Position numbers and translations under genes: made by a program. The notes under the pieces are model-generated. The model did no database searches, was not told where the DNA came from, and worked only from the letters and a program-made list of their open reading frames with translations. DNA of 64,000 bases from Hyphomicrobium sp. D-2 (GTDB taxonomy: Bacteria; Pseudomonadota; Alphaproteobacteria; Rhizobiales; Hyphomicrobiaceae), in assembly GCF_029872155.1 (NCBI RefSeq), contig NZ_JARXLA010000001.1:186001-250000 (forward strand), given 5' to 3'. Shown here one piece after another: positions 5,658 to 16,970 of this stretch (position 1 is its first letter; the number at the start of each line of letters is the position of its first letter).

Positions 5658-6509
5658 ATGGCCGAAACTTGGCAACAAAACGGGCACTCATTCCATGAGA
5701 GTGCCGTCGAGGGCGTCGAAGATGTGATGCTCTTCGCGCGGCCGTGGTCCGCCACTGCGCGGTTCGCTGTCTTGGCGCTCAGCGCCATTGCAGGCGCTGC
5801 TGCCGCACTTCACTTCGCATCGGGCGTTGCGCTCGAAACCGCCATGCTCTGGCTGCTGGTTCCGGCCGCGTTTGCCGGTGGCCTGCTGTCTACATGGTCG
5901 CCGTGCGGGTACTCCAGCGTGTGTCTGCTGCGTCCGAACGGCAGCTATTCGCTGCGCTCGGTGGCCGCCTGGACGCCTACGCTCATTGCACACTTCGTCG
6001 GCTACGGACTTGGCGCGCTGGCCCTCGGTGGCGCGCTTGGATATGCCGGATATGCCATGGGGCTTGGCTCCTACATGGCCTACACGATCCCGGTGTTCGC
6101 GGTTCTGCTTGCGGCCTATGGCGCGCATCAGCTTGGGTTCCTCCGTGTGCCCTATCCGCAGCGCCGTTGTCAGGTTCCCCACGACGCGCGTCAGCGCTTC
6201 CCCAAGTGGGTGATCGGTCTGCTCTATGGCTTCTCGCTGGGTCTGAATTACCTGACCTACGTGCAGACGCCGCTGCTCTACGCAGTCACGGGTGCTGCCC
6301 TGTTCTCGGGCAACGTTGCTTTCGCCATCGGTATCTTCCTGGTGTTCAACCTCGGCCGCTTCCTGCCGCTGATGCTGAACGCGCTGCCGATGTCCGATCG
6401 CTCCATCACGGCATGGCTGGCGAAGCGTCAAGAGCAGGCTGCAATGCTTGATGGCGCCATTCTCGTCGCCGCAGGCACTGCCGTTATGGCGATGTACCTG
6501 ACCGCCTGA
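5658..6509 (+). CDS. mauF: MauF, membrane protein needed for methylamine dehydrogenase biogenesis
   Basis: This 283-residue integral membrane protein has about six to seven hydrophobic helices. A cysteine-containing segment [14 protein letters not shown] near residue 75-90 recalls the CcdA/DsbD transmembrane thiol carriers to which MauF is distantly related. It is the first gene of the mau operon, as in other methylotrophs, and has a strong GAGAGGAGAGG leader. MauF is required for formation of active methylamine dehydrogenase, presumably in the membrane. The gap to mauB is 52 bp. Confidence 0.9.
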
Positions 6510-6561
6510 TTTCCACGTCGTCTCTCAGCATCAGAATAAACGCTGCCTCAAGGAGGAAACA

Positions 6562-7797
6562 ATGACGCATAACTCAACGACTTCGGAAACGCTGAAAAAG
6601 TACCGGAACGCGCTGCTTGGCGGCGTGGCTAGCCTGGTGCTCATCGGCGCTGCCGGTGTGGCCAATGCTCAGCAGGGCCCGTCGGGAGCTGAAGTTCCCA
6701 AGCAGCTCGGCGCGCAAGCCACGTCGGAGCTGGAAGATACGCCGGTGATCCTGTCGGCACCTGCTCCGGATGCTCGCCGTCTTTACATCACCGATCCGGC
6801 TCACTTCGCCACCACGACCCGCACCTTCACCGTTGACGGAAACGACGGCAAGGTTCTGGGCATGATCGACGGCGGCTTCCTGACGAACCCGTTTGCAGCC
6901 ACCGACGGCAGCTACTTCGGTCAGGCCAGCACGGTCTATTCGCGTGTCGCTCGCGGCAAGCGCGACGACTACATCGAAGTTTACGATCCGAAGTCGCACG
7001 AAGTTATCGCTGACATCGACATCCCGGAGAGCCGCTTCCTCGTCGGCACCTATCCCTGGATGACGACCGTCACTCCGGATAACAAGTCGCTGCTCTTCTA
7101 TCAGTTCACGCCGTCGCCGCAGGTTGGACTCGTCGACATCGAGAACAAGAAGTTCGTATCGATGATCGACGTGCCGGATTGCTATCACATCTTCCCGTCG
7201 GCAAACGATGCGTTCTTCGCGCACTGCCGCGACGGCAGCATGGCGAAGGTGAAGTACGGCAAGGATGGCAAGGCTGAAATCAGCCAGTCGAAGCCGTTCC
7301 ATGGCGAGGAAGAGTACCTCATCAACACGCCGGCTTACTCGATGAAGGCTGGCCAGCTGGTTTGGCCGACCTACGACGGCAAGATCTTCCCGGTCGACCT
7401 GTCTTCGGGTGAAGCCAAGTTTGGCACGCCGTTCGATGTCTTCACCGAGGAAGAGCGCAAGGACAACTGGCGCGTCGGTGGCTGGCAGCCGGTTGCCTAT
7501 CACCGCGACAGCGGCGAGGTCTATCTGCTTGGCGATCAGCGCGCAAAGTGGACGCACAAGTATCCGAGCCGCTTCGTGTTCGTTCACGACGTGAAGACCG
7601 GCAAGCGTCTGCGCAAGATCGACCTTGGACATGACATCGACTCGATTGCGGTGAGCCAGGACAAGAACCCTGCGCTCTATGCTCTCTCTACCGGTGAGAA
7701 GAAGCTCTACATTCTCGACTCTCAGTCGGGCAAAGAGGTCTCTTCCACTGACGAGTTGGGCCATGGTCCGCAAGTCATGATCGCTCACGATAACTGA
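6562..7797 (+). CDS. mauB: Methylamine dehydrogenase heavy (alpha) chain
   Basis: The 411-residue precursor has an N-terminal signal peptide ending near AGVANAQQG. The rest is a seven-bladed beta-propeller-type sequence (segments such as [11 protein letters not shown] and [20 protein letters not shown]). With MauA it forms the periplasmic alpha2-beta2 enzyme that oxidises methylamine to formaldehyde and ammonia. The length fits the family. An AAGGAGGAAAC site precedes the ATG. The gene lies between mauF and mauE in the canonical order. A 418-codon open frame on the opposite strand covers nearly the whole gene and is a composition artefact. Confidence 0.96.
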
Positions 7798-7808
7798 TCG
7801 AGGAAGCC

Positions 7809-8360
7809 ATGTGGTTTTTAACAGACCCACTGGTGACGATCTTCCTGCGAGCGTTCCTCGCTCTCCTGTTTGCCGGCGCAGCTTATTCCAAGCTGCGCCA
7901 TCAGGAAGAGTTCTTCGGTGTGGTTCGTAACTTCCGGCTGATGCCGGAATGGATGGCCGCTCCGTTTGCCGCGGTACTCCCGTGGGTGGAACTTGCTGTT
8001 GCGGTGGGACTGCTGGTCAATCCGGCAGTTCCCTACGCGGCCGTGGCGGCGGGCGGACTGCTTCTGCTGTTCGCTCTCGCCATCGGCATCAACGTTGCGC
8101 GTGGCCGGAAGGCAATCGACTGTGGTTGCTTCCGTAACGGCTACCGCCAGAACCTCAGCTGGATGCTGGTTCTGCGTAACGTGGTGCTGGGCGGCGGTGC
8201 TCTGATGCTGGCTGGTATTGCAGACATCTCCCGTGCTGCAACGCTGTTCGACATCACCACCGGCGTAATGGCCGCAGGAGTCGCCATGACGTTGTACCTC
8301 ACGGCTGGATTGCTCGGCGGTGTCGCGAACATCGCAAAGAGCAACGGTCATCTCTATTAG
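7809..8360 (+). CDS. mauE: MauE, membrane protein for MauA disulfide formation/export
   Basis: The 183-residue protein has about five hydrophobic segments and belongs to the DoxX/MauE membrane family. A conserved CGCF motif (AIDCGCFRNG) lies near residue 100. MauE and MauD are needed to process, transport or form disulfides in the cysteine-rich small subunit. Without them MauA is unstable. A GAGGAAG site precedes the ATG, 11 bp after mauB. It is tightly followed by mauD (15 bp). Confidence 0.92.
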   Translation: MWFLTDPLVTIFLRAFLALLFAGAAYSKLRHQEEFFGVVRNFRLMPEWMAAPFAAVLPWVELAVAVGLLVNPAVPYAAVAAGGLLLLFALAIGINVARGRKAIDCGCFRNGYRQNLSWMLVLRNVVLGGGALMLAGIADISRAATLFDITTGVMAAGVAMTLYLTAGLLGGVANIAKSNGHLY

Positions 8361-8375
8361 GAAAGGCAGTGCACA

Positions 8376-9005
8376 ATGGCGATCGAGTTCCTGATTGCAT
8401 CAAACGTTCTGCTCTGGCTCACGGTCATCGCTGGTGCGGTCGTGCTGCTGGGGATTACACGGCAGGTTGGCATCCTTCACGAGCGCTCTGCTCCGCTCGG
8501 CGCAATGATTACCGATCACGGTCCTGACATCGGCGATAAGGCGCCGACGTTCGAAGTTGTCGACTACTACGGCAAGCCGGCCCGCATCGGCGGCGGTGGA
8601 CGTGAGACGCTTATCATGTTCACGGCTCCGACCTGTCCGATTTGCGACAAGCTGCTGCCGATCATCAAGTCGGTTGCTAAAGACGAGAACGTCGCCGTGT
8701 TCCTGGTGAGCGATGGCCAGCCTGAAGATCACGCGCTCTTCCTCAAGAAGCATGATCTGGCCGGCATCCCGTACATCGTTTCACCTGAAGTCGGCATGCG
8801 CTTCCAGGTCGGCAAGATTCCCTACGGTGTCGTTATCGACAGCCACGGGAAGATCCGCGCGAAGGGCCTGACGAACACCCGCGAGCATCTTGAAAGCCTT
8901 CTGGAAGGTGCTCGTACCGGTCATGCGTCCTTGCAGGACTACATGAAGAAGACCGGCATCAACGGGATCCACGCCAACGGTAGCGGCGTACACGCCGAGC
9001 ATTGA
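8376..9005 (+). CDS. mauD: MauD, membrane-anchored thioredoxin-like protein
   Basis: The 209-residue protein has one N-terminal membrane anchor (residues 5-28) followed by a periplasmic thioredoxin fold. The active site is Cys87-Pro-Ile-Cys90 (FTAPTCPICDKLLP) and a cis-proline region reads GKIPYGVVIDSHG. It most likely acts as a disulfide isomerase or oxidase for MauA, which needs many correct disulfides. A GGAAAGG site precedes the start. The order mauE-mauD-mauA matches other mau operons. Confidence 0.95.
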   Translation: MAIEFLIASNVLLWLTVIAGAVVLLGITRQVGILHERSAPLGAMITDHGPDIGDKAPTFEVVDYYGKPARIGGGGRETLIMFTAPTCPICDKLLPIIKSVAKDENVAVFLVSDGQPEDHALFLKKHDLAGIPYIVSPEVGMRFQVGKIPYGVVIDSHGKIRAKGLTNTREHLESLLEGARTGHASLQDYMKKTGINGIHANGSGVHAEH

Positions 9006-9044
9006 GCCGCAAGAACATAGCGACATCTGGAGGAGGAATACCCC

Positions 9045-9596
9045 ATGCTAGAGAAATCAAAGTTTGACGACATTCTGGAAATGGTAACGCGCCGCGTCGC
9101 CAGCCGCACCAGCCGCCGTGGCTTCATCGGTCGCGTCGGAACGGCACTTGCCGGTGCTGCGCTTGTTCCGCTGCTGCCGGTCGATCGTCGTGGCCGCACC
9201 AGCCGTGCTCACGCCGCTTCCGGTGGCCGTGAAGGCTGGATCCCGCAGGATCAGGACAGCAAGCAGTGCGACTACTGGCGTCACTGCTCCATCGACGGCA
9301 ACATCTGCGATTGCTGCGGTGGCTCGCTCACCAACTGTCCTCCGGGCACGCGTCTGTCGCCTTCTTCGTGGGTGGCAAGCTGCTACAATCCTGGCGACAA
9401 GCAGGCCTACCTGATCGCCTATCGCGATTGCTGCGGTAAGAACGTTTGCGGCCGTTGCGGCTGTCTCAACACCGAAGGCGAACTGCCGGTCTACCGTCCT
9501 GAGTTCGCTAACGACATCATCTGGTGCTTCGGCGCCGAGGACGATGCAATGACCTATCACTGCACGATCTCGCCGATCGTTGGCAAGGCGAGCTAA
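9045..9596 (+). CDS. mauA: Methylamine dehydrogenase light (beta) chain, TTQ subunit
   Basis: The 183-residue precursor has a twin-arginine signal (TSRRGFIGRVGTALAGAALV). By family alignment Trp109 (SSWVASCYN) and Trp160 (DIIWCFGAEDD) correspond to Trp57 and Trp108, which are crosslinked into tryptophan tryptophylquinone. Asp84 and Asp128 match the catalytic Asp32 and Asp76, all with a constant offset of 52. The mature part has 14 cysteines, whereas I recall 12 (six disulfides) in the Paracoccus enzyme. A very strong GGAGGAGGAAT site precedes the ATG. Cofactor formation needs MauG, which is not encoded in this window. Confidence 0.97.
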   Translation: MLEKSKFDDILEMVTRRVASRTSRRGFIGRVGTALAGAALVPLLPVDRRGRTSRAHAASGGREGWIPQDQDSKQCDYWRHCSIDGNICDCCGGSLTNCPPGTRLSPSSWVASCYNPGDKQAYLIAYRDCCGKNVCGRCGCLNTEGELPVYRPEFANDIIWCFGAEDDAMTYHCTISPIVGKAS

Positions 9597-9617
9597 TCTA
9601 CTCCCTGGACTGACTTT

Positions 9618-9654
9618 GGGCAGCGATGAAGCACGCTTCATTGCTGCCCTTTTT
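9618..9654 (+). terminator. Rho-independent terminator/attenuator between mauA and mauC
   Basis: GGGCAGCGATGAAGC (9618-9632) pairs with GCTTCATTGCTGCCC (9635-9649), with one G-U pair and a tiny loop, and is followed by five T. It lies inside the operon, 22 bp after mauA and before mauC. It is expected to end part of the transcripts or protect the mauA 3' end, which would make the upstream genes more abundant than mauC and mauJ. Confidence 0.85.
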
Positions 9655-9665
9655 CCCTTCAACGT

Positions 9666-10046
9666 ATGAGACGTGTCATGTCAAAACTCAGGAATCTGCT
9701 CTTACTTGTAGCCCTGGCGGCGCCTATGAACGTTGCTGTCGCCGCCGATGCGATGGAGGTCGTTGCAGCTGATGCAGTGCCTGCCGACGCAGTTCACGTC
9801 GATATCGCCAAGATGAAGTATGCCCCGGCGAAGCTCGAAGTCGAAGAAGGTCAGACGGTGTTGTGGACCAACAAAGACGCGATGCCTCACAACGTGCAGA
9901 TCGCCAATCCGTTCAAGATCGCCGGCAACATGCTGCGCGCTGGACAGACCTTTGCGATCAAGTTCAATCAGCCTGGCGAGTACGCATATACTTGCACGCC
10001 ACATCCCTTCATGAAGGGTGCCATCACGGTGAAGCCTAAGGGCTGA
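9666..10046 (+). CDS. mauC: Amicyanin, blue-copper electron acceptor
   Basis: The 126-residue precursor has a signal peptide ending near VAVAADA. The cupredoxin domain shows all type-1 copper ligands: His75 (MPHNV), Cys110, His113 and Met116 (YTCTPHPFMKG). Amicyanin takes electrons from methylamine dehydrogenase in the periplasm and hands them to c-type cytochromes. The ATG at 9666 starts only 11 bp after the terminator T-run and has no clear ribosome site. The ATG at 9678 is an alternative with the same signal peptide core. The gene order after mauA is canonical. Confidence 0.95.
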   Translation: MRRVMSKLRNLLLLVALAAPMNVAVAADAMEVVAADAVPADAVHVDIAKMKYAPAKLEVEEGQTVLWTNKDAMPHNVQIANPFKIAGNMLRAGQTFAIKFNQPGEYAYTCTPHPFMKGAITVKPKG

Positions 10047-10083
10047 TCGAGGCTGAAAGAGAGATTTTACAGGAGATCCCGCA

Positions 10084-11004
10084 ATGTGGATTCCTCACAA
10101 CCAGCTTGGTCCGCTTCGTGCGGAGTCGTCCAGGGAAGTCATCGAGGCTTCGCAGGCGGCCACTGAAGAGCGCATGTTCGTGGTGGGATTTATACTTTGC
10201 AACACGCTGACCAAGGCGTGGGAGACGGATCTTCTTGTTGTTCCCGATGAAGCCAAACGGGAAATTGAAATTGACGGCCGGCCGGCGACGTTGCACGCAT
10301 CGGCCAACGTCGCCGGCAAGCTGCACGAATTGATTTACACCATTAAGGCAACGAGTGCCGCGGATGCGCTGGCACCTGTCTATCGGCATGTGAACGACGA
10401 GCTGGATAAGCTGGCGCTTCAGTACGGACGCAGTTTTGAGCTGGTCGGCTGGCGCCTGGCCGATGTGGAGTATGAAGCGCGCTGGCGGTTTGTGCCGTTC
10501 CGGCCTAGCGCACTGCTGCCGGAGCTTAAAACCGGACCGTTGCCGGAAGCATACGTAGAGGCGCTGCAGCTTTATCGGCAGGCGCGCAACGCGGTCAGCC
10601 CGGCATGGCGATTGATAGCGGCGGGCGCCATTGTCGATGCAGCGGTTTCCCGGCGTGCCCCGTTCGATGGCGGCAATATCGACTATGCAACCCTTCCGGT
10701 TGCTGTTGATGTGCTAGTGCGCAGCGGCACGCTGATGACGCATCCGGAATTGAAAGACGCGAACATGACAGCGGTGCGCGATGTGGTGGAGACCGCGCGC
10801 AAAACGCTGCTCGAACAGCTTGTGACGTTTGGGGGATCGCCTGCCGCTACGGAGCGGCGTGACTTTGCGGCGGCGACAGCGCTTGTGGCATTGGCGAACC
10901 TGGCCGACCTCGCCGCACATAATCTGCTGACTGTGAGCCTGCGCGAAAAGGGTTTCTTTATTGCGCCGGAGCCGGCGGAACAGCCTGAAATGACAGACGC
11001 CTGA
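10084..11004 (+). CDS. mauJ: MauJ, methylamine utilization protein of unknown function
   Basis: This 306-residue protein has no signal peptide, no membrane helix and no cofactor motif that I can see, so it is probably cytoplasmic. It follows amicyanin by 37 bp with an AGGAGAT site, exactly where mauJ lies in other mau clusters. The assignment rests mainly on position and length. The family has no established biochemical role. The next gene begins 11 bp later, so they are co-transcribed. Confidence 0.75.
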   Translation: MWIPHNQLGPLRAESSREVIEASQAATEERMFVVGFILCNTLTKAWETDLLVVPDEAKREIEIDGRPATLHASANVAGKLHELIYTIKATSAADALAPVYRHVNDELDKLALQYGRSFELVGWRLADVEYEARWRFVPFRPSALLPELKTGPLPEAYVEALQLYRQARNAVSPAWRLIAAGAIVDAAVSRRAPFDGGNIDYATLPVAVDVLVRSGTLMTHPELKDANMTAVRDVVETARKTLLEQLVTFGGSPAATERRDFAAATALVALANLADLAAHNLLTVSLREKGFFIAPEPAEQPEMTDA

Positions 11005-11015
11005 GGATATACACC

Positions 11016-11228
11016 ATGGGACTTAGCATGACGCATCTGGTTTTGCTGCTGGTGATGGCTGTCCTGTTGTTCGGACGCGGTAGAATTGCGGGCCTGATGG
11101 GCGATTTTGGCAAAGGTTGGCGCGAATTCAAGCAGGGCATGACGCAGCAGCCGGTGCCGCGTACCGTTGCGATCACCCGCCAGCCTGCACCGCGCGCGAT
11201 CGCCGATTTGCGGGACGAGCGCTACTAG
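11016..11228 (+). CDS. TatA/E-type twin-arginine translocase component within the mau operon
   Basis: The 70-residue protein has one N-terminal membrane helix (MTHLVLLLVMAVLLFG), the phenylalanine-glycine hinge (LFGRGRIAGLMGDFGKGW) and an amphipathic helix with a basic tail. These are the hallmarks of TatA/TatE. No tatB or tatC accompanies it. It is 11 bp after mauJ and on the same strand. MauA in this operon and MauM nearby carry Tat signals, so it may be a paralogue that supports their export (inference). It takes the place that mauG has in the well-known clusters. Confidence 0.8.
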   Translation: MGLSMTHLVLLLVMAVLLFGRGRIAGLMGDFGKGWREFKQGMTQQPVPRTVAITRQPAPRAIADLRDERY

Positions 11229-11754
11229 AGTCGTGCCGCCTTCGATCGGAGCGCGGAACTGCTGCAGTTGATTGTGTCAGGCGTGCTTCCCGCCGGAAAG
11301 CGCGTCCCGTTATGCTGACTGAACGCTGGCGTTGGCGTCGGCACGGTTGCGTGCCAGTGCGCCATGGAGCACCGGGTGGACCGACAGCGTTCATCGCCGC
11401 CCAATCGTATCCCAGCTTGTGCATATCTGGCGCTGTCACCCTCGGCAGTTTGGAATAAAGCCAAATCCGTTAATGCCGGTTGCGTCGCGCATTATTCAAC
11501 AACGTTCGATGGCATGCGATCGAACGGCGATTGTATCTGGCGCACGCCTGCAATCTTAGCGCGGGTTTGCGCATTCCTGGCCGCAAAGATTTACCAAGCG
11601 ACGCCGCGCAAGACGTGTCGCGTGGCCGCATGCATGCCGCAGCTTGCCAAGCGGAGGCTGGAAGCGCAAATTTGTCCCGAAAAAAAATGATTGCCGGAAC
11701 GGCAACTTGAGAAACGCAATTGAAGCCCGCAAAGGGCCGCAAGGGGATGAGTGT
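11229..11754. other. Non-coding region before the small-protein/permease operon
   Basis: This 526-bp gap has no supported gene. It contains an imperfect GC-rich inverted repeat GGCACG-GTTG-CGTGCC at 11340-11355. From about 11675 it carries the leader that is repeated upstream of the second permease copy. No T-run follows the tatA gene closely, so transcription may continue from mau. Confidence 0.5.
11691..11705 (+). promoter_or_regulatory. Conserved leader stem-loop, copy 1
   Basis: TTGCCG-GAA-CGGCAA forms a perfect six-base-pair hairpin about 50 bp upstream of the first small gene. The second copy keeps the hairpin with a different loop (14183-14197). Function unknown. Confidence 0.4.
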
Positions 11755-12048
11755 ATGCAGCAGAAACCTTCTGACGCACGTGTCAAAAGGATGTTCGCGC
11801 GCGACCGTGTGTGGGCCTTCGCGGCCGTATTCGCATTGTGGTGCGTCTATGCATTCGCATTTTGGCAGCTTTATGTAAGCCAAAACGAGCCGGGTGTGCT
11901 TTGGGCGCTTGGGATTGGCGGCAGTCTGGTCCTGCTCTTCAACACCGCGTCCATCATCGCAATGATCCTGCATTATGCGCAGGACAAAGATCACATCTAT
12001 CGTCTCGACATCTATTACCTGGATGAGATGAAACGGGCGAAGGGCTAG
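11755..12048 (+). CDS. Small membrane protein A of permease operon (two helices)
   Basis: The protein has 97 residues. It has a basic cytoplasmic N-terminus (QQKPSDARVKRMFARDR), two hydrophobic helices (AFAAVFALWCVYAFAFWQLY and VLWALGIGGSLVLLFNTASI) and a charged C-terminal tail (HYAQDKDHIYRLDIYYLDEM). The start at 11755 was chosen for the AAGGGGATGAG site just upstream and because the duplicated copy also begins there. I do not recognise a family. The topology, two helices with a charged tail and a large transporter downstream, recalls small subunits of solute symporters, but that is an analogy and not homology. Followed by gene B after 8 bp. Confidence 0.75.
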   Translation: MQQKPSDARVKRMFARDRVWAFAAVFALWCVYAFAFWQLYVSQNEPGVLWALGIGGSLVLLFNTASIIAMILHYAQDKDHIYRLDIYYLDEMKRAKG

Positions 12049-12056
12049 GTGCTGTC

Positions 12057-12467
12057 ATGGCGAAGGCACCTTATCGACCGCCTGTGCAATCTCAGATCGG
12101 TCAGATCTTCGACACGCTGTTCCTGCTGGCGCTTGTGTTGGCTTCGCTGTTCGCGCCCGTCTATCTCGGGTTGGCGGGCAGCGGCAAGACCACAGTGGAG
12201 TTGAGCGATACATCCTGGGCGGGCATGAAGCAGAACGCCACCATGCAGGCGCAGTGGGAGAAGCTCGGTTACACGGATGGGACTGAAGCGAAGGATGGCA
12301 GACAGCCGGCGTCGAAACTGATCGCGACGCGCTTCGACTACAACTTCAGCTTCGTCGAGCTTGCCGCCAGCGCGCTTGTCGTCGTCGCGTATTTCTTCAT
12401 CGTCTTCTACTGGTCGAAGAAGGAATATCGCGAAGTGATCGACGAGCGTTTCGGCAACAGCGAATAG
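12057..12467 (+). CDS. Small membrane protein B of permease operon (two helices, periplasmic loop)
   Basis: The protein has 136 residues. Helix 1 is near residues 17-40 (IFDTLFLLALVLASLFAPVY). A polar loop of about 60 residues follows, and helix 2 near residues 102-122 (FVELAASALVVVAYFFIVFY) leads into a charged tail (WSKKEYREVIDERF). No family is recognised. The tight spacing to gene A (8 bp) and gene C (16 bp) marks an operon. The length and predicted orientation (both termini inside, loop outside) suggest an accessory subunit rather than a transporter on its own. Confidence 0.75.
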   Translation: MAKAPYRPPVQSQIGQIFDTLFLLALVLASLFAPVYLGLAGSGKTTVELSDTSWAGMKQNATMQAQWEKLGYTDGTEAKDGRQPASKLIATRFDYNFSFVELAASALVVVAYFFIVFYWSKKEYREVIDERFGNSE

Positions 12468-12483
12468 ATTTCGCGAGGATCGC

Positions 12484-12669
12484 ATGAACACGTTCGCGTT
12501 GCTTGAATATTCCGCGTGGGGGCTTTCGATCTTGCTTGGCCTCTGGATGCTGGTCGATATGTTCCGAACGGACCGCAGCTATTCGGAAGACCTTCTCACC
12601 TCCTCCAGAGAAGGCGAAATCGAAGATGCTTCGGCGGTCGACCCGCCGCAAAAGCGGGGCTCTCGGTGA
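12484..12669 (+). CDS. Small membrane protein C of permease operon (single helix)
   Basis: The protein has 61 residues: one hydrophobic helix (YSAWGLSILLGLWMLVDMF) and an acidic, then basic cytoplasmic tail. A GCGAGGAT ribosome site precedes the ATG. Its TGA overlaps the GTG start of the permease (GTGA), so translation is coupled. The last 15 codons (EDASAVDPPQKRGSR) have a clear counterpart (EDATAPASLQKRSIR) just before the second permease, which supports the reading frame as real coding sequence. Confidence 0.7.
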   Translation: MNTFALLEYSAWGLSILLGLWMLVDMFRTDRSYSEDLLTSSREGEIEDASAVDPPQKRGSR

Positions 12670-14054
12670 CTGCTGAGACTTCACCGGCCAACGGCGAGCG
12701 CATCTCGCTGCTGCGCGTCTTGGGGCCTGGGCACGTATGGGCCCTTGGCGTCGGCATCGTGCTGGTCGGCGAATACATGGGCTGGAATTTCGCCGTCGGT
12801 AAGGGCGGCGCGATTGCAGCGTTGATCGCCTGCTGGTTTGCCGGATTGCTTTACACCTGCGTGGCGATGATCGACTCCGAGGTGACGTCGACGGTCGCGG
12901 CTGCCGGTGGTCAGTATGCCCAGGCGAAGCACATCGTTGGCCCACTGATGGCTTTCAACGTGGGCCTCTATCTCGTTTTTGCCTACACTATGCTGGAAGC
13001 CGCCAACGCCATTACGCTGGGCCATCTGGTGCAGACGGTCGGCGCGATGGCGGGGTTCGAGAACACGAACGATAAACCGTTCATCGTGCTGACGATCATG
13101 TTTCTCGCTTGGCTGAACTACCGCGGCGTCTACACAACCCTGACCTTCAGCCTTGTCATCACCGCGTTCGCTTTCATCTCGATTTGCGTGCTGTTCTTTG
13201 CGGTGCAGCCGTGGAGCGATGTTTACATTCAGCACGATCAGATGTTGACAGGGCTGCCGTATGGCTGGCTGGGCGTGCTCGCGGCGTTGCATTTCGGCAT
13301 GTGGTTTTATCTCGGCATCGAAGGCACGACGCAGGCGGCCGAGGAGGTGCGTTCCCCGGCGCGTGCGCTGCCGCTTGGCACCATGACCGGTATCATCACG
13401 CTGCTGATCGCCGCGACCATGACCTGGTATATCTGCTCCGGCCTGATGCCGTGGGAGTATCTCGGGCAGTCGGTGACGCCGCTGTTCGACGCCGCCCGAC
13501 TGACGAACTCAACGCTGCTGATGGTGCTGCTGTTTATCGGTACGATATTTTCAGCGCTCGCTTCGGCGAACTGCTGCATCAACGATGCTTCACGCGCCTG
13601 GTTCTCGATGGGCCGTGACCATTACCTGCCGCAGGTTTTCGGTGCCGTGCATCCGAAGTATCGCACGCCGTACCGCGCGATCGTGTTCCTGGTGCCGGTG
13701 GCGCTTGTGTTCGCCTACTTTGCGCCACTGGATCGGGTGATCACGTTCTCGATCTTGTCCGGCCTGCTCGAATATACGTTCATGGCCTTCAGCGTTATTC
13801 TGTTTCGCAAAAAGTGGCCGCTTGGATCGATCAAGCGGGGCTACGTACATCCGTTCCATCCGCTGCCGGCTGTCATGCTGCTGGTGCTGTGCGCGGCAAC
13901 CTATTTTGCGGTTTTCCTGGGCTATGGAACTCAGCTCATCGCGATGATGGTTTTCTATATCGTGGCGTCGTTGTGGTTTGCGCTGCACCGCTACAAATAT
14001 GTGCGCCGGGGTGAGCAGTTCGCGATGCCATGGCCAAAGCCGGTAGGCTACTGA
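12666..14054 (+). CDS. APC-family permease, ethanolamine-permease-like (copy 1)
   Basis: This 462-residue protein has about 12 hydrophobic helices. The N-terminal motif LGPGHVWALGVGIVLVGEYM and the following glycine-rich helix match the amino acid/polyamine/organocation superfamily, closest in pattern to ethanolamine permeases. The start is GTG at 12666, overlapping the stop of small gene C. No methionine start fits as well. Being next to the mau cluster, it may take up methylamine or a related primary amine (inference). No ethanolamine lyase genes are nearby. It has a 94% identical tandem paralogue downstream. Confidence 0.85.
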   Translation: MTAETSPANGERISLLRVLGPGHVWALGVGIVLVGEYMGWNFAVGKGGAIAALIACWFAGLLYTCVAMIDSEVTSTVAAAGGQYAQAKHIVGPLMAFNVGLYLVFAYTMLEAANAITLGHLVQTVGAMAGFENTNDKPFIVLTIMFLAWLNYRGVYTTLTFSLVITAFAFISICVLFFAVQPWSDVYIQHDQMLTGLPYGWLGVLAALHFGMWFYLGIEGTTQAAEEVRSPARALPLGTMTGIITLLIAATMTWYICSGLMPWEYLGQSVTPLFDAARLTNSTLLMVLLFIGTIFSALASANCCINDASRAWFSMGRDHYLPQVFGAVHPKYRTPYRAIVFLVPVALVFAYFAPLDRVITFSILSGLLEYTFMAFSVILFRKKWPLGSIKRGYVHPFHPLPAVMLLVLCAATYFAVFLGYGTQLIAMMVFYIVASLWFALHRYKYVRRGEQFAMPWPKPVGY

Positions 14055-14182
14055 TTGGCGGGTGTGCCTTACGCGCGCGTCGTCGTTGTGGCCTTGCCCG
14101 ATCACTGCGCGTTCAGGTTGCTACCATCATCCAACTTGTCAATGGACACCATGCAGAGCAAATTTACGTCGGAAAAATAGCT

Positions 14183-14197
14183 TGCCGACAAGGCAAC
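14183..14197 (+). promoter_or_regulatory. Conserved leader stem-loop, copy 2
   Basis: TTGCC-GACAA-GGCAA occupies the same position relative to the remnant start codon as the copy-1 hairpin. The outer five base pairs are kept while the loop and the sixth pair differ. Confidence 0.4.
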
Positions 14198-14233
14198 ATG
14201 GGGAAGCGCAATCCAAGCCCGCAAGGGGGGAGT

Positions 14234-14473
14234 ATGCAGCAGAAGCCTTCTGGCGCTTGCGTCAAAAGGATGTTCGGCCGCGAGGACAGAGTTTATGCCC
14301 TGTCTGTGCAGACATCTGCGATCTGGGCTCGAAGAAGTGCGCAGGGAAAGCCCGCTGCGACGACGATAGCTTCATATCGACTGCCGCTTCATTCTCGGGC
14401 GTGCCAAGTTTCCAGCGCGCTGTCAGAAGACGCCACAGCACCTGCCTCGCTGCAAAAGCGGAGCATTAGGTGA
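14234..14473 (+). pseudogene. In-frame fusion remnant of small genes A and C before permease copy 2
   Basis: The open frame has 79 codons. The first ~20 residues (MQQKPSGACVKRMFGREDRV) match the start of small protein A. The last 15 (EDATAPASLQKRSIR) match the end of small protein C. The middle has no membrane helix and no recognisable counterpart. All of gene B and both helices of A are lost. The frame still ends in a GTGA overlap with the permease start, and a GGGGGGAG ribosome site precedes its ATG. It can therefore serve as a leader peptide for coupling even if the product is useless. Confidence 0.7.
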
Positions 14474-15855
14474 AAGTCGATGCATCTTCCAGTGGCGAGC
14501 GCATCTCGCTGTTGCGCGTCCTTGGCCCGGGGCACGTATGGGCCCTCGGCGTCGGCATCGTGCTTGTCGGCGAATACATGGGCTGGAATTTCGCGGTCGG
14601 CAAAGGCGGCGCGATTGCAGCGCTGATTGCCTGCTGGTTCGCCGGTTTGCTTTACACCTGCGTGGCGATGATCGACTCCGAGGTGACGTCCAGCGTTGCT
14701 GCTGCGGGTGGTCAGTACGCGCACGCCAAGCACATCGTCGGGCCGCTGATGGCCTTCAACGTCGGGCTCTACCTTGTGTTTGCCTACACTATGGTGGAAG
14801 CCGCCAATGCAATCACGCTGGGCCATCTGGTGCAGATTGTTGGCGTGATGGCGGGGTTCGAGGACGCCAGCGATAAACCGTTCATCGTGCTGACGATCGT
14901 GTTTCTGGCCTGGCTGAACTACCGCGGCGTCTACACAACCCTGACTTTCAGTCTCGTCATCACAGCGTTCGCTTTTGTATTTATATGTGTGCTGTTCTTT
15001 GCGGTGCAGCCGTGGAGTGACGCGTACATCAAGCACGACCAACTGTTGACGGGGTTGCCGTATGGCTGGCTGGGCGTGCTCGCGGCTCTGCATTTCGGCA
15101 TGTGGTTTTATCTCGGCATCGAAGGCACGACGCAGGCGGCCGAGGAGGTGCGTTCCCCGGCGCGTGCGCTGCCGCTTGGCACCATGACCGGCATCGTAAC
15201 GCTGCTGATAGCGTCGACGATGACCTGGTATATCTGCTCCGGCTTGATGCCGTGGGAGTATCTCGGGCAATCGGTGACGCCGCTGTTCGACGCCGCGCGG
15301 TTGACAAACTCAACTCTGCTGATGGTGTTGCTGTTTATCGGCACGATATTTTCAGCGCTCGCTTCGGCGAACTGCTGCATCAACGATGCTTCACGCGCCT
15401 GGTTCTCGATGGGACGCGATCGCTATCTGCCGCAGGTGTTCGGCGCCGTGCATCCGAAGTATCGCACGCCGTACCGGGCAATTGCCTTTTTGGTGCCGGT
15501 GGCGCTGGTGTTTGCCTACTTCGCGCCGCTGGATCGGGTGATCACGTTTTCGATCTTGTCCGGCCTGCTCGAATATACCTTCATGGCCTTCAACGTTATG
15601 CTGTTCCGGCGCAAGTGGCCACTTGGATCGATCAAGCGTAGCTATGTGCACCCGTTCCATCCATGGCCGGCGGTGATACTTCTGGTCTTGTGTTCTGCGA
15701 CGTACGTTGCGGTTTTCCTGGGTTACGGAACTCAGCTCATCGCGATGATGGTTTTCTATATCGTGGCTTCGCTGTGGTTCGCCGTGCACCGCTACAAGTA
15801 TGTTCGGCGAGGCGAGCAGTTTGCGATGCCGTGGCCAAGGCCGGTAGGATACTGA
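14470..15855 (+). CDS. APC-family permease, ethanolamine-permease-like (copy 2)
   Basis: This 461-residue paralogue of the permease at 12666 differs from it at 28 of about 452 aligned residues by my count. The changes are mostly conservative and spread over the protein. All ~12 helices and the LGPGHVWALGVG motif are intact, so it is under selection. The GTG start at 14470 is conserved with copy 1. Unlike copy 1 it lacks its own small membrane partners. It may use those of copy 1 or work without them. The substrate is unknown. A primary amine is suggested by context. Confidence 0.85.
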   Translation: MKVDASSSGERISLLRVLGPGHVWALGVGIVLVGEYMGWNFAVGKGGAIAALIACWFAGLLYTCVAMIDSEVTSSVAAAGGQYAHAKHIVGPLMAFNVGLYLVFAYTMVEAANAITLGHLVQIVGVMAGFEDASDKPFIVLTIVFLAWLNYRGVYTTLTFSLVITAFAFVFICVLFFAVQPWSDAYIKHDQLLTGLPYGWLGVLAALHFGMWFYLGIEGTTQAAEEVRSPARALPLGTMTGIVTLLIASTMTWYICSGLMPWEYLGQSVTPLFDAARLTNSTLLMVLLFIGTIFSALASANCCINDASRAWFSMGRDRYLPQVFGAVHPKYRTPYRAIAFLVPVALVFAYFAPLDRVITFSILSGLLEYTFMAFNVMLFRRKWPLGSIKRSYVHPFHPWPAVILLVLCSATYVAVFLGYGTQLIAMMVFYIVASLWFAVHRYKYVRRGEQFAMPWPRPVGY

Positions 15856-15922: not shown

Positions 15923-16597
15923 TTGCTTGGCGCGTTTTTGATCGCGAGTATCGCCGGTGCGGTGGCGGCATGGGGCTATCGTGATCATCGCCGAATGGTT
16001 GCGCAACGGCGGCGACTTCTGGATCAGTGTGCGGATCTGTTCGAAAACGTTCAGGTCACGCACAGTGGTGACGGATTTCCGACGCTTGCAGGCGAACACG
16101 GCGGACGGTCGTTCCAGGTTCGGCTGTTCAATGATGGCATGACAATCCGGCGGCTGCCGCAGCTCTGGCTGCAGGTCACAGAGCTGCGGCCAATGGATAT
16201 CGGGGCCAGTGGCTTCGCTGTTCTGGTGCGGCCTTCGGGTTACGAGTTTTTCAGCCTCACCGCGGATTTTCATCACTTTATCGATGTGCCGACAGGCTTT
16301 CCGCGCGAGTGTATCGTGCGAGGGGAAAGTCCTTTATCGGAGCACATGTTGCAAAGGGTCGGGGCAACGGTTGGCGGCATACTTGCCGATCCGGTCATAA
16401 AGGAAGTGGCTGCAACCCGGAAAGGTTTGCGCCTTATCCGTCAGGTCGACGAGGGGCGGCGAGGAGACTACCTCCTCCTTCGACAGGCGGCGTTTGACCG
16501 TGGCCCGGTTGCCGTCAGTACTTTGATCGGGGCGATTGCGAGCCTTCGGACGCTTGCTGACGGTGTGGAAGGTTGTGCTGCCGACGACGCCAGTTAA
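15923..16597 (+). CDS. Conserved hypothetical membrane-anchored protein
   Basis: The protein has 224 residues and starts with TTG (GAAGGAT lies eight bases upstream). A short N-terminal hydrophobic helix (LGAFLIASIAGAVAAWGY) is followed by a soluble domain with no motif I recognise (TVGGILADPVIKEVAATRKG, GPVAVSTLIGAIASL). It lies 67 bp after the second permease on the same strand and may be read from the same transcript. Base composition is like its neighbours. Confidence 0.6.
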   Translation: MLGAFLIASIAGAVAAWGYRDHRRMVAQRRRLLDQCADLFENVQVTHSGDGFPTLAGEHGGRSFQVRLFNDGMTIRRLPQLWLQVTELRPMDIGASGFAVLVRPSGYEFFSLTADFHHFIDVPTGFPRECIVRGESPLSEHMLQRVGATVGGILADPVIKEVAATRKGLRLIRQVDEGRRGDYLLLRQAAFDRGPVAVSTLIGAIASLRTLADGVEGCAADDAS

Positions 16598-16682: not shown

Positions 16683-16970
16683 ATGACGAATAAACACAAG
16701 CGGCCAATCAATCCTTACCTAATTCTTGCATTGGCTATTGTTTTGCCGGGTGCGGGCCATGTTGCATTGGGATTGCCACAACGCGGTTTTGGCTTTGCCT
16801 TCTTTTCTCTGCTACTGGCACTGGCGACCTGGCATACGGCCGGGCCGGAGATTTCATTTATAGGTCGCTCGGCCGGCGGGCTGTTCGTGTGGGCGCTATC
16901 GATTCCAGACGCTTATCGGATTGCCCGCCTGCGCTATGAAACGTGGATGCGCGACAATCGCGCGGCTTAG
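16683..16970 (+). CDS. Small integral membrane protein
   Basis: The protein has 95 residues with two to three hydrophobic segments. The first contains ILALAIVLPGAGHVALGLPQ, a proline-glycine-x-glycine pattern seen in TM2-like and related small membrane proteins. The tail is basic (RIARLRYETWMRDNRAA). No clear ribosome site is visible before the ATG at 16683. Function unknown. Confidence 0.55.
   Translation: MTNKHKRPINPYLILALAIVLPGAGHVALGLPQRGFGFAFFSLLLALATWHTAGPEISFIGRSAGGLFVWALSIPDAYRIARLRYETWMRDNRAA

Follow-up and report, generated by a model that had tools for sequence, protein, structure and literature searches.

The window analysed here is a stretch of 64,000 nucleotides from the 3.79 Mb genome of Hyphomicrobium sp. 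D-2 (contig NZ_JARXLA010000001.1, positions 186,001 to 250,000), and the element under study is a gene cassette that encodes an APC-type permease and five small proteins, named A to E, and lies behind the mau cluster (Table 1). A very close counterpart was found in Hyphomicrobium sulfonivorans S1 (L105), whose B protein is 98% identical. A preliminary description of the locus had listed A, B, C and one permease as a four-gene unit. Its gene positions, the gaps of 8 bp (A-B) and 16 bp (B-C) and the overlap of the C stop with the permease start (4 bp) were confirmed, and hydropathy analysis returned the two, two and one transmembrane segments given for A, B and C, with 59 residues in the B loop for which about 60 had been estimated. 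The unit itself had been drawn too short, with D, E and the second permease copy overlooked, and comprises six genes.

Table 1. Features of the cassette and of the neighbouring mau cluster in the window
Feature	Position	Strand	Remarks
Gene A	11755-12048	+	97 aa; two transmembrane segments (19-37, 54-72; hydropathy)
Gene B	12057-12467	+	136 aa; two transmembrane segments (21-39, 99-117; hydropathy)
Gene C	12484-12669	+	61 aa; one transmembrane segment (6-24; hydropathy)
APC permease copy 1	12666-14054	+	462 aa; GTG start
Remnant of gene A start and its upstream region	14155-14283	+	73% identical to 11663-11804
APC permease copy 2	14470-15855	+	461 aa
Gene D	15923-16597	+	224 aa; listed TTG start; N-terminal transmembrane helix and soluble domain
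Gene E	16683-16970	+	95 aa; small membrane protein; one segment over hydropathy threshold
mau cluster	5658-11004	+	upstream of the cassette
mauF (presumed)	5658-6509		name from gene order
Methylamine dehydrogenase large subunit	6562-7797	+	NCBIfam equivalog cut-off passed
mauE (presumed)	7809-8360		name from gene order
MauD	8376-9005	+	NCBIfam equivalog cut-off passed
Methylamine dehydrogenase small subunit	9045-9596	+	NCBIfam equivalog cut-off passed
Amicyanin-like gene	9666-10046	+	under amicyanin cut-off
mauJ (presumed)	10084-11004		name from gene order

Short conserved features were shared by the relatives of the small proteins. The tail HYxEDKxxIYGLDIxxLD was found in A, the tail SxxEYR[DE]VIxE[RK]F in B, the tail YSExxLxSSREGE in C and the motif LPGxGHVxxGxxxRG in E. 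Residues W54, Q59, L70, G71 and Y95 are invariant among the relatives of B, and the loop between the two transmembrane segments of this protein is probably periplasmic.

Conservation of the gene order

Two locus sets were compared. Among 297 genomes of the same taxonomic order, B was present in 44, and loci with up to ~10 kb on each side were taken from 40 (order set); the other four genomes were that of the window (G000), G004, in which the locus lies at a contig end, G068 and G280. The species set comprised the best 80 of 367 B relatives that were retrieved with a narrow peptide pattern from one genome each of 84,980 species. The two sets overlap; L043 and L105, for example, are one place.

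The arrangement A-B-C-permease-D-E was observed in 39 of the 40 order-set loci, 38 of them plainly on one strand and L043 with a doubled permease, and the remaining locus (L072) reaches the contig end after the permease. In the species set it was kept at 74 of 80 loci, comprising 71 plain cases and three with a doubled, split or extra permease match (L105, L138, L131). Contig ends cut four of the six shorter loci (L106, L114, L116, L179); the two exceptions are L122, where D and E are absent though mgsA lies directly next, and L173, where E was not detected. Of 398 sampled genomes from the phylum, 14 contained B; 12 of these belong to the same taxonomic order, and the full set was present in both of the others (G303 and G572), beside N-methylglutamate genes in one case (L198) and beside genes 35-47% identical to mgd genes in the other (L197). 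The positions of D and E behind the permease had first been seen in seven annotated plasmid records. No relative of B was confirmed in the viral contigs searched.

In the series L001-L030, where L001 is the window's own locus and L030 is cut by a contig end, homologues of A, B and C adjoin the same permease at 29 of the 30 loci, and the association is thus not due to chance. A hitch-hiking relic of gene order devoid of functional coupling would agree with the 33 species-set loci that have no methylamine genes nearby; it is nevertheless a highly improbable explanation, given that A, B, C and the permease occur together in all of 79 dereplicated loci, whose permeases differ by >3% with identity down to 60%, and that the A-B gap stays between -8 and +16 bp in 46 of the 48 loci measured. 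Within the same 79 loci D was found in 76 and E in 74, and the other gaps are looser (at single-permease loci, as much as 447 bp for permease-D and 188 bp for D-E). Judged from the sequences, the cassette is a real and conserved gene set, that of an APC transporter with putative accessory subunits.

Two loci showed irregular reading frames. The B and C frames of a Sinorhizobium meliloti plasmid (L039, 11412-13383) run past their usual stops and are both unannotated, possibly owing to sequencing errors, and the permease match of Methyloceanibacter (L138, 4130-5900) is in three pieces.

Coupling of the small proteins to one permease subfamily

A permease match at E<=1e-60 was obtained in 43 of the 297 genomes, at 66-100% identity, and all 43 encode B (Fisher test, p about 3e-51, kinship uncorrected). 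In the 44th B genome, G004, a distance of 136 bp separates A and B from a contig end, and the permease had no match at this threshold. Among 72,556 plasmid records, the 22 with B are by accession the same 22 that carry a permease at least 70% identical; the remaining 404 permease-matching records stay below 60% identity, at 25-31% for those among the 60 listed (366 records not being in the list). B is present once in the genome of the window, away from its two other APC matches, which are 27% and 23% identical to the cassette permease. The expected tie of the small proteins to one permease subtype was thus borne out, and homologues of A-C serving another enzyme away from permeases, the finding that would have spoken against it, were not encountered in the loci examined, where L195 is the sole separated case and G004 the contig-end case lacking a permease match.

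Over 74-79 dereplicated loci, the distance matrices of A, B, C, D and E gave correlations of 0.63, 0.77, 0.73, 0.71 and 0.71, respectively, with that of the permease; mgsC gave 0.53 (n = 40) and gmaS 0.57 (n = 42). All of these values include species-tree signal. On the same 39 loci the cassette genes reached 0.64-0.83, compared with 0.55 for mgsC and 0.58 for gmaS, and the pair mgsC-gmaS 0.74. The higher correlations with the permease inside the cassette suggest that the six genes travel as a unit of their own, separate from the neighbouring enzyme operon.

At L195 a divergent A and a permease (66% identical) precede a two-component pair and mau genes, behind which lie the gene of a MauG-like protein and then B, so that A is still beside the permease and B lies ~11 kb from it at the opposite end of the same mau cluster. 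The genome of this locus (G031) has a full cassette at L059, and the genome of L122 has another one with D and E (L167, the same isolate by record title), which is consistent with the missing subunits being supplied in trans. The mau island of L195 (3475-16336) also contains extra cytochromes, and its methylamine dehydrogenase large subunit scores 302.7 bits, under the NCBIfam cut-off of 454.45.

Family and fold assignments

Both permease copies matched AA_permease (95.7 and 105.5 bits for copies 1 and 2; cut-off 24.6) and AA_permease_2 (88.8 and 85.4 bits; cut-off 27). Only AA_permease families were listed for them at E<=1 in Pfam, with no qualifying match to the Amt/Rh family PF00909. The closest NCBIfam model was the ethanolamine permease TIGR00908, at 182.1 and 176.6 bits and under its cut-off of 381.75. 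The cassette permease is like APC amino acid and ethanolamine permeases over nearly its whole length, and unlike other APC permeases in falling below the TIGR00908 cut-off and in coming with A-E. Its nearest solved sequences are 5oqt and 6f34, both of which we take to be GkApcT.

None of the five small proteins of the window exceeded a curated Pfam or NCBIfam cut-off, in keeping with the earlier view that A, B and C belong to no recognised family. Weak matches among the relatives had best E values of 8e-5 for 36 A proteins and 2.5e-4 for 37 B proteins; MASE3 (9 of 36 A), DUF4153 (7 of 36 A), BCCT (3 of 37 B) and DUF6677 (10 of 35 E) were considered as families and rejected as chance or unhelpful matches. 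No Pfam family was found at E<=0.01 for 36 C and 38 D relatives.

The soluble domain of D, behind the N-terminal transmembrane helix, was confidently predicted to adopt a TtfA/CCDC47-like fold, the absence of other folds from the match list being no evidence. The structural alignments have ~7-15% identity, and sequence homology to TtfA or CCDC47 was not detected, with no Pfam family at E<=0.01 in the 38 members and no PDB chain at E<=10 with a D profile. The matched chain is presumably CCDC47, a component of the multipass translocon, and TtfA is part of the MmpL3 complex according to the available text of PMC6593404. In the predicted model D thus resembles both proteins in its fold, its N-terminal membrane anchor, its domain on the inside and its presumed place as partner of a membrane transporter or translocon, and differs from them in its partners and in the lack of a family match by sequence.

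Tandem duplication of the permease

The two permease copies of the window are 92-93% identical in protein and 88% in DNA. The ratio of nonsynonymous to synonymous substitution (dN/dS) between them was 0.08, and that between the orthologues of the two species was 0.016 and 0.019, indicating from sequence comparison that both copies are intact reading frames under purifying selection. A second copy is also present in H. sulfonivorans S1, where it starts 32 bp after the first. The remnant of gene A ahead of copy 2 suggests that this copy may descend from a longer duplication, the A-C part of which has since been lost. The retention of two copies in two species raises the question of whether a single A-C set serves both.

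These observations bear on an explanation in which the permease suffices alone and A-E are co-inherited as assembly or insertion factors, or as a sensing device, and not as stoichiometric subunits. The predicted fold match of D to CCDC47 would fit it, as would the purifying selection on a copy 2 without its own A-C and the loss from view of C, D and E at L195. We regard it as rather unlikely, because A, B and C were met solely in the company of a single permease subfamily, which sets them apart from a general biogenesis factor, and because the single B of the window's genome stands apart from the two other APC matches.

Genes for methylamine use beside the cassette

N-methylglutamate genes are the usual neighbour of the cassette, at 24 of the 40 order-set and 43 of the 80 species-set loci. 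Genes for trimethylamine or dimethylamine oxidation without N-methylglutamate genes in the flanks were found at 4/40 and 3/80 loci, and mau genes at 1/40 and 1/80, which are one and the same genome. Because the flanks are short, these counts are lower bounds; in G265, for example, ~17 kb of a shared contig separates the N-methylglutamate genes from the cassette, which puts them beyond the stretch of L069. The two sets were counted with different identity limits for mgdB. Compared with this, the rough chance level of methylamine-gene adjacency is <1% per locus. The gene mgsC was located upstream or downstream of the cassette and on either strand, so the link either arose repeatedly or outlasted rearrangement. 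An mgsC match was present in 43 of 44 cassette genomes, compared with 62 of 253 others, the 62 including some genomes with only mgsC paralogues of 51-55% identity. The methylamine link proposed earlier thus stood, in that the cassette lies mostly near methylamine-using pathways, while its mau setting turned out to be exceptional, the N-methylglutamate route being the common one.

The identity of the mgs-gmaS genes was based on TIGR03105 for gmaS, on record annotation and on the available part of the P. aminophilus paper (PMC4543880), in which the mgsABC-gmaS operon is mapped on plasmid pAMI6. The cassette adjoins this operon (L035) and is not mentioned in the portion of that text on the operon available to us. 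A distant second APC-type permease lies a few kb from the cassette at several loci (L054, 13151; L131, 11697; L133, 11440; L148, 4226; L150, 11686; and others), being 21-26% identical or matching another APC permease of the same genome; it may be the trimethylamine N-oxide permease tmoP named in the same source.

The mau and N-methylglutamate pathways are unrelated and have methylamine in common, and no N-methylglutamate or trimethylamine genes were found in the stretches searched at the mau-linked loci (window 1-30000, L105 and L195). Both points argue against another substrate, such as dimethylamine, trimethylamine, gamma-glutamylmethylamide, N-methylglutamate, ethanolamine or an amino acid, with methylamine entering via Amt or by diffusion. 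That explanation, in which the subunits would still be real and which we hold to be unlikely, could draw on the loci with trimethylamine and dimethylamine genes (Tmm, DUF3445) lacking N-methylglutamate genes, on the nearest NCBIfam model being an ethanolamine permease (182 vs 382 bits) and on a Pseudomonas in which an Amt protein encoded next to gmaS-mgsABC is given as the methylamine transporter (PMC8292978, as far as its text was available).

Replacement of the cassette by Amt or another permease was also considered. Twenty N-methylglutamate loci with no cassette next to them, chosen among the mgsC matches, gave no sign of a simple exchange: Amt lies near one (L097), and APC matches of 23% and 26% identity lie near two (L101, L099). 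The genomes of three of these loci (L086, L088, L094) have the cassette elsewhere, in one (G265) ~17 kb off. The ammonium transporter of the window's genome is in two pieces in different frames (G000:C8:455420-456600; L103, L104), which reflects a frameshift or an assembly error.

Relocation within the Hyphomicrobium lineage

Linkage to mau is confined, among the loci examined, to the lineage of the window, including H. sulfonivorans S1, and to the divergent L195. The genome of the window also has N-methylglutamate genes on the contig of the cassette, ~110 kb ahead of it (L196). There mgsA stands back to back with an mgdB-like gene (44% identity to its S. meliloti counterpart) at a distance of ~330 bp, and no cassette gene was detected at E<=1e-3 in the 19.5 kb examined. 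Exactly between mgsA and the mgdB-like gene the cassette is found at L044, L045, L051, L111, L112, L113, L115 and L117, eight loci of seven genomes (L045 and L111 being one contig). Besides H. sulfonivorans, the nearest permeases are those of the Hyphomicrobium loci L107 (90%), L109 (89%) and L108 (88%), whose cassettes are linked to N-methylglutamate genes. The simplest reading of these sequences is that the cassette moved, or was regained, beside mau and so remained with methylamine genes; the direction and mechanism of such a move we infer.

Proposed function of the cassette

The reading that we favour, with moderate confidence, is that A-B-C-permease-D-E constitute one module that acts as a secondary importer of methylamine (methylammonium) or a very close methylated amine; transport, its substrate and direction, the physical complex and the roles of single subunits are all points that we infer. 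The APC permease, with the LeuT-type fold presumed from its family, would carry the substrate inward, and A, B and C would pack around it as small subunits, much as the single helices of MgtS and 4F2hc do on GkApcT and LAT1, respectively. The conserved outside loop of B might act as a lid or as a substrate filter, and the short inside tails that are conserved in A, B and C might dock on D, which as a membrane-anchored protein with a predicted TtfA/CCDC47-like inside domain would be an assembly factor or regulator of the complex, with E as a further small membrane component. The imported methylamine would feed the cytoplasmic N-methylglutamate pathway and also serve as nitrogen source. Since methylamine dehydrogenase is periplasmic according to the available text of PMC5023228, import would be most sensible for these two uses, and both routes are encoded in the genome of the window.

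Several results weigh against the proposed importer. With the enzyme in the periplasm, a place beside mau would in itself give no reason to expect uptake, and three of the six clear methylamine dehydrogenase loci of the taxonomic order (L205-L207; two weak mauB matches of 27-29% in G247 and G248 being excluded from the six) have no cassette in the stretch examined. Likewise, 62 of 105 genomes with an mgsC match lack the cassette, so that neither pathway requires it, and G004 has A and B with neither a permease nor an mgsC match in its assembly. None of the searched methylamine genes was found in the flanks of 11/40 and 33/80 loci; the neighbours of these 44 loci form 11 clusters of at least four loci, the largest with nine, and some clusters span lineages, which makes another common pathway possible. 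The Amt of the Pseudomonas, in the part of PMC8292978 available, indicates that an importer of another kind is possible. As regards the subunits, L195 yielded no C, D or E and L122 no D or E, permease copy 2 is not accompanied by its own A-C genes, and the predicted model of B is weak (predicted template-modelling score, pTM, 0.40) and was judged too weak for a fold search. The divergence correlations, which include species-tree signal, leave a moderate margin, and within the cassette the pairs C-E (0.51) and A-E (0.58) are no higher than the cross pair C-gmaS (0.60).

Comparison with known systems

Measurements of methylamine uptake in methylotrophs go back a long time, and the enzymology of methylamine use is well worked out. 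Neither an alphaproteobacterial methylamine importer with its genes nor a description of the cassette was found in the open-licence literature searched, where the sole methylamine transporter met with by name was the Amt of a Pseudomonas (PMC8292978). Amine-induced amino-acid permeases are reported in the available text of PMC5023235, with no genes mappable to the cassette, and the accessible portions of PMC5520151, PMC13390433 and PMC5017803 contain nothing on it.

The SLC3/SLC7 heteromeric amino acid transporters likewise pair an APC light chain with a membrane partner; unlike these, the window encodes partners of 61-224 aa, with no heavy chain bearing a large amylase-like ectodomain and no such Pfam domain. 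Sodium-solute symporters with an adjacent small partner gene (DUF485, DUF4212, DUF997, DUF3311) resemble the cassette in joining a secondary transporter to a neighbouring small gene; they differ in belonging to another transporter family, and none of these four families was matched by the A-E relatives at E<=0.01. In GkApcT-MgtS a bacterial APC transporter has a single-helix small protein bound, as described in the available text of PMC5803215, but this MgtS is an Escherichia coli protein from the expression host, whereas the cassette encodes five proteins besides the permease.

It may be, though we would rate this as somewhat less likely than not on the sequences at hand, that the cassette represents the first transporter of the APC superfamily to be an obligate hetero-oligomer, with about six membrane proteins including a TtfA/CCDC47-type subunit on the cytoplasmic side, and that it is the dedicated alphaproteobacterial methylamine importer, shifted between two non-homologous methylamine pathways as a single portable unit. 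Should the subunits prove real, the view of APC permeases as acting alone or with one helper would change, as this one would have five small partners, and a TtfA/CCDC47-like protein would be linked to a bacterial uptake system; if the proposal is true, a role would also be found for five uncharacterised protein families that occur in many Alphaproteobacteria.

The mau cluster of the window

The upstream neighbourhood had been assigned to mau beforehand, and the passing of the NCBIfam cut-offs by both methylamine dehydrogenase subunits and MauD agrees with this. No mauG-like gene for the TTQ-forming enzyme was seen behind mauJ (11004-11755); the best match in the genome to the MauG-like protein of L195 lies on another contig and covers residues 50-296 of 344 at 37% identity. 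A small gene of the TatA/B/E type (11016-11228; Pfam TatA_B_E) was found between mauJ and the cassette, with a counterpart of 84% identity in H. sulfonivorans S1.

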